Source: Puniceicoccales bacterium Verruco_02 (GTDB lineage Bacteria; Verrucomicrobiota; Verrucomicrobiia; Opitutales; Oceanipulchritudinaceae). From it: a stretch of DNA of 43,949 nt. The stretch is taken from assembly GCA_001604585.1 (NCBI GenBank), contig LVBW01000069.1, positions 164 through 44,112 of the forward strand, given 5' to 3'. The notes beneath the pieces are model-generated. The model was not told the origin of the DNA. It was given only the letters and a program-made list of their open reading frames with translations, and did no database searches. The translations under genes were made by a program, and so were the position numbers. Each line of letters begins with the position of its first letter. The stretch's first letter is position 1. Positions 20,250 through 24,835 of this stretch are shown piece after piece.

Positions 20250-20897
20250 CTATGCCCCGCCGGGAATGTCCACAACGCCGCAGGAAATGGCAATGCGGGT
20301 AAGACCCACGGCGCTGTGCGTGTCCAGCTTGCCCATGATGTTGTTGCGGTGAACCTCTGCCGTGCGCGCGCTTATGCCCAATGCCTCGGCAATGTCGCGC
20401 GAGGACAGCCCCTCCGCTATCAGGCGCAGCACTTCCATCTCCCGGCTTGTGAGAGTCTCCAGCGCGGGCAGTTCCATCTTGCCCGACACCAAATCGGGCA
20501 TACTGCGCACCACCATGTCGCCAAAATAGCTGCGCCCGGAAGCCACGGCCAGAACGGCCCTTTCCATCTCGGCCAGTCCGGCCTTCTTTTCCACAATGCC
20601 GTCCACCTTGGCAAGAAGGGCGCGGCGGATTATCGGCATGTTGAACAGTCCGCTAAAAAGCAGGATTCGCATGCCGGGCATAGCCTCGCGAAGCTGACGA
20701 GCCAGCTCCACCCCGTCCATGCCCGGCAGGCGCACGTCGGTAATGAGCATGTCGGGCTTGAGGCGCAGGCATTGGGCAAGCCCTTGGGCGCCATCGCCGC
20801 AGTCGCCAAGTACCGAGAAGCCCTCCCGAGAAGTCAGCATCTCGCGGACTAGGTCGCGCAGCAGTGTTTCGTCCTCTACGATATATACGGATGGCAT
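20250..20897 (-). CDS. NarL/LuxR-type response regulator
   Basis: A 215-residue two-domain regulator. Receiver domain 1-120: acidic pair Glu8/Asp9 in IVEDE, phosphoacceptor Asp54 in LITDVRLPGMDG, Ser82 in LFSG and Lys104 in VEKKAG, so all switch residues are present. C-terminal LuxR helix-turn-helix from about 148: LTSREMEVLRLIAEGLSSRDIAEALGIS and TAEVHRNNIMGKL. No histidine kinase is adjacent. Start ATG 20897 gives the canonical MPSVYIVEDE. It may be cotranscribed with the antiporter downstream and could control it, which is inference. Divergent to lgt. Confidence 0.93.
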   Translation of the reverse strand: MPSVYIVEDETLLRDLVREMLTSREGFSVLGDCGDGAQGLAQCLRLKPDMLITDVRLPGMDGVELARQLREAMPGMRILLFSGLFNMPIIRRALLAKVDGIVEKKAGLAEMERAVLAVASGRSYFGDMVVRSMPDLVSGKMELPALETLTSREMEVLRLIAEGLSSRDIAEALGISARTAEVHRNNIMGKLDTHSAVGLTRIAISCGVVDIPGGA

Positions 20898-21044
20898 GAT
20901 TGGGAGTTGGGAGAATGTGGGCCTTGCCTCTCCATCAGATAAAGAAAGAAGCTTGCCTTGCGCAAGAGATGAGCGGGAGCCGTGTTGCAAATGCTGCCTT
21001 TTCGTGCGTGGATGCCATGCGTCGGCCTGTGCTAGGCCATGACT

Positions 21045-21072
21045 TTGCATACACCAATGCTCACCGGATAAA
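21045..21072 (+). promoter_or_regulatory. Candidate promoter of lgt
   Basis: TTGCAT (21045-21050) and GATAAA (21067-21072) are separated by 16 bases. The -10 ends ten bases before the lgt ATG, so the transcript would have almost no leader. Seen by eye only. Confidence 0.4.
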
Positions 21073-21082
21073 GGCCCTCACC

Positions 21083-21985
21083 ATGACGCTCCCCGCGCTT
21101 GCCTACTTTGTCTGCGATTTCGACCCCGTCATCCTGCACATATGGGGGCCGCTGTCCCTTCGCTGGTACGGGCTGGCCTATGTGGCTGGCTTTGCCGTGG
21201 CGTATCTACTCTGGACAAGGGCCGTAAGCCAAGGGGCCACCCCGCTGAACAAGGACAACGTGGAGGAACTGATGACCTGGGGCATCGCAGGGGTGCTTGT
21301 CGGGGGGCGACTCGGCTACATGCTCATGTATGACTTTGGCACGCTCGTGGCGGACCCGCTCTCCCTTATCCGCGTTTACGAAGGCGGAATGGCCTTCCAC
21401 GGCGGGGCGCTGGGCTGCATCGGGGCCGTTTTCTTTGTGGCGCTGAGGCGGGGGCTAAGTCCCTTCAGGGTGGGGGATCTCGGCGTCATGGGTGTTGCAT
21501 GGGGCCTGTTTTTTGGCCGCATTGCCAACTTCATCAATGGCGAACTCTGGGGAAAGCCCAGCTCTCTGCCTTGGGCCGTGGTGTTCCCCAAGGCCCCGCT
21601 CGCAGAAGGCGCGCCAATAGTGCAGGTGGATTACGCGGGCCTGTCCATAATGGCCAATCTGCGCCACCCATCCCAACTTTACGAAGCCGCGCTGGAGGGC
21701 CTTGCACTGGGCATAATCATGCTGCTTCTTTTCTGGCGCACAGGACTTAGGGAGCGCGTTCCGGGCCTTATCTCGGGCCTCTTCCTTGTTCTATACTCCG
21801 TATCACGGATAATCTGTGAGCTATTCCGCGAGCCTGACGCAGGGGTGACACCCATTCTTGGCTTCAGCCGGGGGACAGTATTCAGCTTCTTTCTCTTTGA
21901 AATTGGCTTTGCCGTGATGGTCGTTGCGATTGTAATGGCCAAGCGCCGCACTCGCTTGGCAGACAGTGGAGGGAGAAACTCATGA
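21083..21985 (+). CDS. lgt: Prolipoprotein diacylglyceryl transferase
   Basis: Transfers diacylglycerol from phosphatidylglycerol to the lipobox cysteine of prolipoproteins in the inner membrane. The 300-residue polytopic product shows the family blocks LSLRWYGLAYVAGF (Arg and Tyr of the active region), GGRLGYML, YEGGMAFHGGALG with the catalytic His region, FFGRIANFINGELWG (the Lgt signature) and HPSQLYEA. Length is normal. ATG 21083 was chosen at the first hydrophobic segment. It overlaps the next small gene by ATGA. Substrates in this window include at least the two lipoproteins near 33-35 kb. Confidence 0.96.
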   Translation: MTLPALAYFVCDFDPVILHIWGPLSLRWYGLAYVAGFAVAYLLWTRAVSQGATPLNKDNVEELMTWGIAGVLVGGRLGYMLMYDFGTLVADPLSLIRVYEGGMAFHGGALGCIGAVFFVALRRGLSPFRVGDLGVMGVAWGLFFGRIANFINGELWGKPSSLPWAVVFPKAPLAEGAPIVQVDYAGLSIMANLRHPSQLYEAALEGLALGIIMLLLFWRTGLRERVPGLISGLFLVLYSVSRIICELFREPDAGVTPILGFSRGTVFSFFLFEIGFAVMVVAIVMAKRRTRLADSGGRNS

Positions 21986-22149
21986 TCGAGGCCGAACATG
22001 ACACCCAAGTTGAAACAAGCGTGCAGGAACAAGTGCCCCAAGCGCGTATGCGCCCGATGGCTAGGGACTTTTTCATGTTTCTATGCTGGGGCCTGCTCAT
22101 CGTGTTCGTCGCGGCACAGTTTGTCATAGCGGCATGGACCATGCGCTAA
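21982..22149 (+). CDS. Small single-span membrane protein coupled to lgt
   Basis: A 55-residue open frame whose ATG overlaps the lgt stop (ATGA, 21982-21985) and is preceded by a strong GGAGGGAG ribosome site inside the end of lgt. The product has an acidic, glutamine-rich N terminus (MIEAEHDTQVETSVQE), a short basic stretch (ARMRPMARDF) and one hydrophobic segment of about 20 residues (~30-52) near the C terminus, so an N-in, single-span protein is predicted. I recognise no family. The ribosome site and overlap are the main evidence that it is real. A role linked to lipoprotein processing is only a guess from position. Confidence 0.7.
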   Translation: MIEAEHDTQVETSVQEQVPQARMRPMARDFFMFLCWGLLIVFVAAQFVIAAWTMR

Positions 22150-22180
22150 ATCCATCCAGCGCAACAGCAAGGAGTTCTGC

Positions 22181-22690
22181 GTGAGAGAGGAGATATTCGA
22201 CGTAGTGGACAGCGAGGATCGCGTCGTGCAGCGCCTGCCGCGCAGCCTTGTCCATGCACAACGCCTCATGCACCGCGCGGTGCATGTGTTGGTATTCAAC
22301 GCCAAGGGGGAGCTGTTCCTGCAAAAGCGTTCCATGCAGAAAGATCTCTGCCCGGGCATGTGGGGCAGCTCCTGCGCCGGGCACTTGGAAAGTGGCGAGG
22401 ACTACGACAGCGCCGCGCCAAGGGAGTTTGCCGAAGAGCTGGGACTGCCCTGTCCACCGCTGGAAAAGCTCTTCAAGCTGCCCCCATCGGCAGGCACGGG
22501 GCAGGAGTTCGTATGGGTGTACCGCTGCAAACACGAGGGGCCGTTCATCCTAAACGCCAGCGAGATAGAGCGCGGCGAATGGCTGCCTGCGGAGGGACTT
22601 GCGGAAATGATGGATAAGCGAAGGGACGAATACACTGCTTCGCTCCGCACTGTGTGGGCAGCTTACCTAGCTTGGGCCGGGCAAATGTGA
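22181..22690 (+). CDS. Nudix hydrolase, YfcD/Idi-like
   Basis: A 169-residue Nudix-fold protein. The Nudix box matches fully: GHLESGEDYDSAAPREFAEELG, with Gly, Glu, Arg-Glu and Glu-Glu in place. The flanking HRAVHVLVFNAKGELFLQKRS and CPGMWGSSCAGH resemble the YfcD and isopentenyl-diphosphate-isomerase-like group, which hydrolyse or isomerise diphosphate compounds; true type I Idi cysteine/glutamate catalytic pattern is only partly present, so a Nudix hydrolase is the safer call. The start is GTG 22181 with AAGGAG (22169-22174) six bases upstream. It follows the small lgt-coupled gene by 31 bases. Confidence 0.85.
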   Translation: MREEIFDVVDSEDRVVQRLPRSLVHAQRLMHRAVHVLVFNAKGELFLQKRSMQKDLCPGMWGSSCAGHLESGEDYDSAAPREFAEELGLPCPPLEKLFKLPPSAGTGQEFVWVYRCKHEGPFILNASEIERGEWLPAEGLAEMMDKRRDEYTASLRTVWAAYLAWAGQM

Positions 22691-22717
22691 CAAGCGAACC
22701 GGTTTTTCCGACATCGC

Positions 22718-22747
22718 TTGCCCGACACCCCCAGAGGCTGCTAAACT
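22718..22747 (+). promoter_or_regulatory. Candidate promoter of the DUF2062 gene
   Basis: TTGCCC (22718-22723), an 18-base spacer and TAAACT (22742-22747), 21 bases before the ATG at 22769. A 7-base inverted repeat, CAAGCGA (22691-22697) and TCGCTTG (22714-22720), overlaps the -35 and could be an operator or a weak terminator of the Nudix gene. Confidence 0.4.
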
Positions 22748-22768
22748 TCCGTCCATCATTACCCCTGC

Positions 22769-23455
22769 ATGGAACACGAGGAAGCAAAACTGCTGAACAA
22801 GCACCACCGCCGCATTCGGCGCATGAAGTGGCTGCTGCGTTTCCTGCCAAGACGGGCCAATGTCCACCGCTATCCCGGCCTGAAGTGGTTTGCTGGGTTT
22901 GCCAAGGAGCGCATGTATCTTTGGAGCTTCCGCTACCGCGCCGTTGCCCCGGCCCTGTACGCGGGCACGATTCTGTCCCTACTGCCCATATTCGGCATTC
23001 AGATACCCTTGGCCTTCCTGCTATCGCTGCTCATGCGGGCCAACCTGCCGGTATTTGTCGGGCTACAGTTCATCACGAACTGGTTCACAGTGGTGCCCAT
23101 CTACTACATCTGCTACCAGATAGGCCGCTTCTCGCTGAAGCTGGTGAACGTGGACGAGGCTGCGCTGACCATCGAACAGCTGCGCGAGTTCATGGAGCAT
23201 TTTGCTCACCACCAGTGGGCCGCCAACGGGCAGTTCCTACTGCATGTGTTCCTTGTCACATCGCTCGGCAGCCTGATTCTGGGCGTGTTTCTGGGCACAG
23301 TGTTCGACCACCTGTACAAACTCATGGCCTGGCGGGCCGCGGTTACATGGGAAAAGCTCCAGCATATACGCGAACTTCGCAGCCAAGAGCATGAAAAACA
23401 GGCAGGGCAGACTCTCAAAGCCCGCTTTTTCCCCAAGGGCAGGCGCTGGCGCTGA
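22769..23455 (+). CDS. DUF2062 domain membrane protein
   Basis: A 228-residue membrane protein. A basic N terminus (HHRRIRRMKW) is followed by the DUF2062 core: SFRYRAVAPALYAGTILSLLPIFGIQIPLA and LQFITNWFTVVPIYYICYQIG, then a hydrophilic middle and another hydrophobic pair around 165-190, with a charged C-terminal tail. The family is widespread in Gram-negative bacteria and uncharacterised; no catalytic motif is evident. It follows the Nudix gene by 78 bases and precedes namZ by 33 bases. Confidence 0.85.
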   Translation: MEHEEAKLLNKHHRRIRRMKWLLRFLPRRANVHRYPGLKWFAGFAKERMYLWSFRYRAVAPALYAGTILSLLPIFGIQIPLAFLLSLLMRANLPVFVGLQFITNWFTVVPIYYICYQIGRFSLKLVNVDEAALTIEQLREFMEHFAHHQWAANGQFLLHVFLVTSLGSLILGVFLGTVFDHLYKLMAWRAAVTWEKLQHIRELRSQEHEKQAGQTLKARFFPKGRRWR

Positions 23456-23488
23456 CCCAGCCCAAGGACTGACCACGCAGCACAGGAC

Positions 23489-24835
23489 ATGATGCAAAAA
23501 CCTCTTCTCATAAAGATCATAGCAGCCACCGTCCTCGCCCTACTCGCGGCGGGCATATGTCTTTCGGCTCCGGCCTCCGGGCGCAGTGCGCCACTTTCCC
23601 AGATGCCCGCTTCGGCCGCGGCTGCACAGCCACCCCGCACCAATCGCGTTCTCCCAGGCATCGACACCCTGCAAATGCGCGCCTTTCGCGAGCTGAAGGG
23701 CAAGCGAGTGGGCCTGTTGACCCATCCTGCTGGCGTAAACAGTCAGGGCCTGCCCACGATAGACGTTCTTCACAAGGCCCCCGGAGTGAAGCTAGTCGCC
23801 CTTTTCGGCCCCGAGCACGGCATACGTGGCGACGCCAAGGCAGACGTTTACGTTCACGACGCCATCGACGCCAAGACGGGGCTCACCGTGTATTCGCTCT
23901 ACGGAAAGACTCGGCGCCCCACGGCCAAGATGCTGGAAGGCATCGATACGATGGTCATCGACCTTCAGGATGTGGGCACCCGCTCCTACACCTACATCAG
24001 CGCCATGCGCTACGTGATGGAGGAGTGCTTCAAGGAGGGCAAGGAGGTCATGATACTTGACCGGCCAAACCCCCTAGGCGGCCTCAAGGTGGACGGCCCG
24101 CCGATGGACAAGGAGCTGATTAGCTACGTGGGCGCTTACCAGATACCCTACGTGTACGGCCTAACAATTGGCGAACTGGCCCTGATGGCCAAGGCTACTC
24201 CCGGCTGGCTGGATGTACCGGACAAGGTGCGCCGGAGCGGCAGGCTCAGCGTCATTCCCATGACGGGCTGGCGCAGGGACATGCTTTGGCACGACACGGG
24301 GCTGTCGTGGAGGGCCACAAGCCCGGCCATACCGGACTTTTCCGCCGCGATGGGCTACCCGATGACGGGGCTTGGCTGTATGCAGGGGGGCTTTGTCCAC
24401 GGCTACGGCTCAAACTTCCCCTTTCGTATGCTCCAGTTTTCCGGGAAAAGGCCGGAGCAGATCCGCGCTGCCCTGCTCGAAGAGCGCATCCCCGGTCTGG
24501 AGTACGACGTGTTGCCATTCCAGCAGAACGGCAAGGCGCACAGGGGCGTGTACGTCATCGTGAACAACTGGGACACGCTGCGCCCGACCCAACTGAATCT
24601 GCATCTTATGAAGCTGGCCGCGCAATGGGCGCGGGAGTCGGGCAAGCCCAACCCATTCGCCGCCCTGAATGCGGATCAGGCCCTGCTATTCAACAAGCAC
24701 ATGGGGTCGATGGAGTTCTGGAACGCCCTTGTGCGCGATGGAGAGCGGATAGACATAGCGGCCTTCATTCGCAAGTGGGATGCCGAGGCCACCCGCTTCC
24801 GCGAACAGAGCCGCAAATACTGGCTCTACAAATAG
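23489..24835 (+). CDS. namZ: Exo-beta-N-acetylmuramidase NamZ (DUF1343)
   Basis: A 448-residue exported protein. Residues ~1-31 are a signal peptide (basic MQKPLLIK, hydrophobic core, APASG). The rest is the DUF1343 family: GIDTLQMRAFRELKGKRVGLLTHPAGV, LFGPEHGIRGDA, VYSLYGKTRRPTAKML, VIDLQDVGTRSYTYI, ILDRPNPLGG and YPMTGLGC. The characterised member NamZ of Bacillus subtilis removes terminal N-acetylmuramic acid from peptidoglycan fragments, so cell-wall recycling or turnover in the periplasm is the likely role. GACATG with AGGA just before the ATG at 23489. Its stop is two bases from the convergent membrane gene. Confidence 0.9.
   Translation: MMQKPLLIKIIAATVLALLAAGICLSAPASGRSAPLSQMPASAAAAQPPRTNRVLPGIDTLQMRAFRELKGKRVGLLTHPAGVNSQGLPTIDVLHKAPGVKLVALFGPEHGIRGDAKADVYVHDAIDAKTGLTVYSLYGKTRRPTAKMLEGIDTMVIDLQDVGTRSYTYISAMRYVMEECFKEGKEVMILDRPNPLGGLKVDGPPMDKELISYVGAYQIPYVYGLTIGELALMAKATPGWLDVPDKVRRSGRLSVIPMTGWRRDMLWHDTGLSWRATSPAIPDFSAAMGYPMTGLGCMQGGFVHGYGSNFPFRMLQFSGKRPEQIRAALLEERIPGLEYDVLPFQQNGKAHRGVYVIVNNWDTLRPTQLNLHLMKLAAQWARESGKPNPFAALNADQALLFNKHMGSMEFWNALVRDGERIDIAAFIRKWDAEATRFREQSRKYWLYK

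Follow-up and report, generated by a model that had tools for sequence, protein, structure and literature searches.

A predicted single-helix membrane protein of a new, apparently order-specific family is encoded at the end of lgt, with ATP synthase as the leading candidate partner

Results

A small gene starts at the lgt stop codon

The window, i.e. the whole stretch of 43,949 nucleotides analysed here from Puniceicoccales bacterium Verruco_02, carries a 55-codon open frame between lgt and a Nudix hydrolase gene. The features of this region are as follows:

21083..21985, + strand: lgt, prolipoprotein diacylglyceryl transferase, 300 aa (PF01790 E 2.3e-63; TIGR00544 above cut-off)
21968..21972, + strand: GGAGG ribosome-binding site of the small gene, within lgt, 9 nt upstream of the ATG
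21982..22149, + strand: small membrane protein gene, 55 aa/55 codons (open frame; profile of copies from other genomes, E 6.2e-9; shuffle controls)
22057..22143, + strand: predicted transmembrane helix, residues 26-54, with W36, Q46 and W52 (AlphaFold2)
22117..22119, + strand: codon of Q46, the in-membrane Gln/Glu of 80/80 aligned members (family alignment)
22181..22690, + strand: Nudix hydrolase gene (YfcD/Idi-like), GTG start (PF00293 E 3.8e-20)
22769..23455, + strand: DUF2062 membrane protein gene, after the Nudix gene (PF09835 E 1.5e-23)

The ATG of the small gene (position 21982) and the TGA of lgt (21983-21985) form an ATGA overlap, just as a preliminary description of this DNA had stated. 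The same description counted the ribosome-binding site among the best in the window, a fair assessment given that its GGAGG match is equalled or exceeded in length in 5 of the window's 34 gene-sized frames. By themselves, however, the length of the open frame and the overlap prove little: at the composition of the window, the chance that 54 further codons stay open is P ~0.17.

On the downstream side, the GTG start of the Nudix gene lies 31 nt from the stop of the small gene, and the best NCBIfam models for its product, YfcD and isopentenyl-diphosphate isomerase (Idi), are both under cut-off. The Nudix gene contains an 8-pair hairpin (22267-22286) followed by a T-rich tail, and terminator-like sites number seven in 20850-23500 (shuffle mean 2.3). 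A promoter scan of the same interval found none, which says little for the host organism. Searching viral contigs with Lgt gave one distant homologue and otherwise no useful result; the homologue (31% identity) is encoded at 2001-2639 of a 152-kb contig catalogued as viral (IMGVR_UViG_3300035210_000189), which may be viral and carry lgt, or may be a bacterial contig filed in the wrong place.

The small protein has relatives throughout the order

A relative of the small protein is present at E 3.9e-7 in the sister genome G002, from the window's genus, and the two copies are 35% identical. The G002 copy lies on a different contig from the G002 lgt and precedes a gene whose translation reads as FAD-dependent-oxidase-like. 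No copy was found in G001, the genus's third species, either with the window protein or with the 20-protein profile introduced below. When 177 genomes of the window's order were searched with a two-sequence profile, short single-helix proteins were recovered from several families, with a best E of 1.4e-6 outside the genus. A search next to the atpB and trmB genes of the window's family, made without recourse to similarity to the window protein, gave further copies; the copies located by gene position share a stretch reading KDIT or KDLT in the N-terminal part and a helix at the C-terminal end.

A 20-protein profile built without the window's genome and G002 matched the window copy at E 6.2e-9 and that of G002 at 1.2e-8; in the window's genome no other match reached E <= 0.05. 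At the same threshold the profile has matches in 81 of the 177 genomes of the order, and the real scores were reached by none of 15,000 shuffles. In a class-wide draw of 286 genomes 30 match, 29 of them from the window's order; the remaining match (E 0.0086) lies inside a 329-residue frame and looks like a chance hit. As judged by these searches, the family is confined to one bacterial order, that of the window, very probably Opitutales.

A window-built profile had been the first to find 14 of the 20 proteins, and for this reason we made a second profile, from six copies selected by their place among the genes. The candidates were hydrophobic frames beside atpB or trmB, picked by eye, to the exclusion of the more divergent ones of G015 and G016. 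With this profile the window copy scores 26.1 bits, a score reached by 0 of 10,000 full and 1 of 10,000 helix-only shuffles. The genomes G016 (L079, L099) and G015 (L082, L098) each have tandem short single-helix frames between atpB and trmB, with a Gln in the helix in each genome's; this is possibly a duplication within the family.

Gene neighbourhoods separate the small gene from lgt

To compare surroundings we used 81 loci: 76 from as many of the order's 81 matching genomes, plus five from the class draw (G308, G377, G410, G337 and G325). The set omits G050, where the match is inside a 250-residue frame, as well as G126, G032, G168 and G028 (E 0.0043 to 0.041), second matches within a genome, and the weak class-draw matches G419, G387 and G333. 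The names atpB and trmB, and those of the neighbours of relocated copies, were read from translated sequences. Flanks were often read over ~2.5 kb, and over less at contig ends, so the neighbour counts are lower bounds.

Typically, trmB lies at the stop side of the small gene and atpB, followed by the other atp genes, at the start side, both on the opposite strand. The flanks contain atpB and trmB at 45 loci, atpB only at 7, trmB only at 8, and neither at 21, the window included; a place beside one of the two (60 of 81 loci) is thus frequent, not defining, and absent in the window. Wherever atpB is found (52 loci across many families), it stands head-to-head with the small gene (52/52). At the 53 of 81 loci where trmB is found, its strand is opposite to that of the small gene in 51; in the two exceptions, G007 and G009, the strands agree. 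The window's own genome carries atpB and trmB on other contigs, and neither has a family copy beside it.

Relocated copies precede a CPBP-protease-like gene at six loci and a hisS-like gene at five, with a thyA-like gene elsewhere. At L165, L171 and the other f17 and f20 loci, the distance to the CPBP-protease-like, hisS-like or thyA-like gene is 2-56 nt, similar to the arrangement before the Nudix gene in the window. Since the neighbours differ between lineages, the gene has moved on more than one occasion, and its link with lgt is particular to the window's genome. Judging from its frequency rather than from a tree, the place between atpB and trmB is probably ancestral, and the direction of the move in the window's genome would have been from the trmB-atp place into the lgt-Nudix run.

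The preliminary description took the tight overlap to suggest an accessory subunit or regulator of lipoprotein modification. While the ATGA overlap and the good ribosome-binding site speak for such a role, lgt adjoins the small gene at one locus of 81, the window's own. Nor do relatives keep the frame behind lgt, where the description had proposed to look for it: the gene is absent after lgt in all 15 other readable genomes of the window's family, both sister species included. G003 has a frame of 33 codons, with a TTG start, across its lgt stop, and the family copy of that genome is on a different contig. On gene order we reject Lgt as the partner; a role as its subunit or regulator is scarcely credible, and the small protein is very probably independent of Lgt. 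The overlap would probably serve to set translation of the small gene by coupling, with no action on Lgt. More generally, a coupled start seen in a single genome should not be read as a sign that two genes share a function.

A conserved polar residue in a predicted single helix

With two input sequences, AlphaFold2 confidently predicts a helix over residues 26-54, with pLDDT block means of 92, 94 and 84 from residue 31 onwards, where the hydrophobic core begins; the tail is modelled with uncertainty (mean pLDDT 71). The protein had been described as acidic-tailed and single-span. The single predicted span stands; the tail is indeed acidic, with five acidic and zero basic residues among positions 1-21, but it is N-terminal. 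The window copy has three K/R before the hydrophobic core and one after it.

Aligning 80 members (the 81 loci minus G325) showed the same bias, with K/R commoner before the core than after it in 79 of 80 and a tie in the remaining one, from which we infer a predicted topology with the N-terminus inside. A single helix position is occupied by Gln in 69 members and by Glu in 11, i.e. in 80 of 80, and corresponds to Q46 of the window copy. A Phe near the start of the helix is found in 69 of the 80 members, and the position is kept in the window protein. By comparison, the N-terminal [DN][IL]T motif, present in about 50 of 80 rows, is frequent and not defining, although its Thr is kept in all 50 rows that have the stretch. 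The motif is absent from the window and G002 copies, and other lineages likewise lack it.

The family is under selection in relatives

Among 12 pairs of relatives, dN/dS was 0.10-0.36 in eight, while dS was saturated in the other four, the window-G002 pair included. As judged by these eight pairs, the family is under purifying selection in relatives; the near-neutral ratio that the preliminary description had named as grounds for rejecting its reading is not what we see in them, the window-G002 pair being saturated. Because the frame has homologues and its relatives are under selection, we regard it as almost certainly a real gene of the new family. A chance open frame is rejected on the profile match (E 6.2e-9) together with the shuffle controls, which bear out the earlier suspicion that a real gene had been overlooked here.

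Could the window copy nevertheless be a relic, decaying and nonfunctional after its move? Its low identity to the G002 copy (only 35%), the missing N-terminal motif and the failure to find a copy in G001 would all fit such a history. The frame is intact, however, with a good ribosome-binding site and a coupled start; the protein retains the family's conserved helix positions; and over the last 33 codons the in-frame identity to the G002 copy is 52%, as compared to 31-34% in the other frames. The absence of the motif is, moreover, shared with other lineages. We therefore consider decay very improbable.

No known family accounts for the small protein

Comparing the family with Pfam, NCBIfam, PHROGs and PDB yielded no match near a cut-off, in agreement with the first impression that the protein belongs to no recognised family, and we found no description of the family in the open-licence PubMed Central literature. 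Neither AtpI (PF03899) nor AtpZ (PF09527) is among the Pfam matches of 22 members at E <= 1. One rival reading places the protein among the small subunits of respiratory complexes, akin to NapE or CcmD: one of the 22 members matches NapE (E 0.011 in NCBIfam, 0.26 in Pfam) and one matches CcmD (E 0.11 and 0.8, respectively), and both are of like size with one helix. A relationship to NapE or CcmD is nonetheless most unlikely, as the G002 copy reaches 15.9 bits against a NapE cut-off of 68.8 (TIGR02973), and the window copy matches neither family and nothing in PDB. Resting on weak matches of single members only, both identities were set aside.

Discussion

ATP synthase as the leading candidate partner

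A single helix with the N-terminus inside and one polar residue in the membrane is expected of a protein that docks on a larger membrane complex. In the small protein, the in-membrane Gln/Glu would most likely dock the helix against such a complex, and we lean slightly towards regarding the protein as the single-helix partner of one. A candidate for the complex is the Fo part of the F1Fo ATP synthase, for which the small protein would be an assembly or stability factor. ATP synthase is the leading candidate because of the repeated head-to-head place beside atpB and the near absence of AtpI and AtpZ from the order: of 103 genomes of the order, none has AtpI (PF03899) above cut-off and one has AtpZ (PF09527). 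ATPI had already been reported to be missing in verrucomicrobia (PMC4154653), and in Bacillus AtpI has a part in stability and assembly (PMC4453477).

Several findings weigh against this assignment. The small gene and atpB are on opposite strands and thus do not form one operon, 21 of the 81 loci have neither atpB nor trmB, and trmB is as frequent a neighbour as atpB. About half of the order's genomes show no detectable copy and nearly all of these have ATP synthase, so the small gene is not strictly needed. The presence of ATP synthase was useless for discriminating gene-bearing genomes, as subunit a is found in 169 of the 177 genomes of the order; the gene-bearing genomes that lack it, G011 and G115, are both fragmented drafts.

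A possible, if not a probable, alternative is that the protein serves another membrane process, such as a protease, a respiratory enzyme or division, as a small adaptor or regulator with a single span, the place beside atpB being inherited gene order with no functional meaning. Such an adaptor would be consistent with a helix that is kept while the neighbours vary by lineage (CPBP-protease-like, hisS-like, thyA-like, FAD-oxidase-like, lgt/Nudix), with the lack of a likely functional tie to trmB, which is no rarer beside the gene than atpB, and with the lesser functional weight that divergent or convergent neighbours carry when compared with an operon. It does not readily explain why, in many families of an order nearly devoid of AtpI and AtpZ, the gene faces atpB head-to-head (52 of 81 loci), nor why no other membrane-protein neighbour recurs as often as atpB.

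On balance, we consider evenly poised the overall reading that the window carries the relocated gene of an order-specific single-helix inner-membrane accessory with ATP synthase as the leading candidate. That the partner complex is ATP synthase is a tentative proposal and, taken alone, rather unlikely. Doubtful, too, is its most specific form, in which the protein would be an order-specific F1Fo assembly or stability factor, unrelated in sequence to AtpI and AtpZ and filling their place, with a gene that moved out to unrelated operons on several occasions, in the window to the lgt operon. The proposal nevertheless provides a concrete candidate for an open question, namely how bacteria in which AtpI is reportedly missing assemble their ATP synthase.

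Comparison with known small membrane proteins

AtpI/UncI (PF03899) and AtpZ (PF09527) are likewise small membrane proteins, and their genes lie at the same end of the atp genes, that of atpB; the small protein differs from them in having no sequence match to either, in having one helix only and in being transcribed away from atpB. NapE (TIGR02973/PF06796) is also short and is weakly matched by one family member over its helix, whereas the match is far under the cut-off and the window copy has none. BpOF4_01690 of Bacillus pseudofirmus, as portrayed in PMC6120979, is likewise hydrophobic, ~60 residues long and lineage-restricted, and the authors suggest an influence of its deletion on respiratory enzymes and ATP synthesis; it comes from different bacteria and is likened to the small protein by description only. 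As judged by its sequences, the family is a new one within a known kind, that of small single-span membrane proteins, and it adds to that kind an unnamed family, without a Pfam, NCBIfam, PHROGs or PDB match, that appears to be under purifying selection in one bacterial order.
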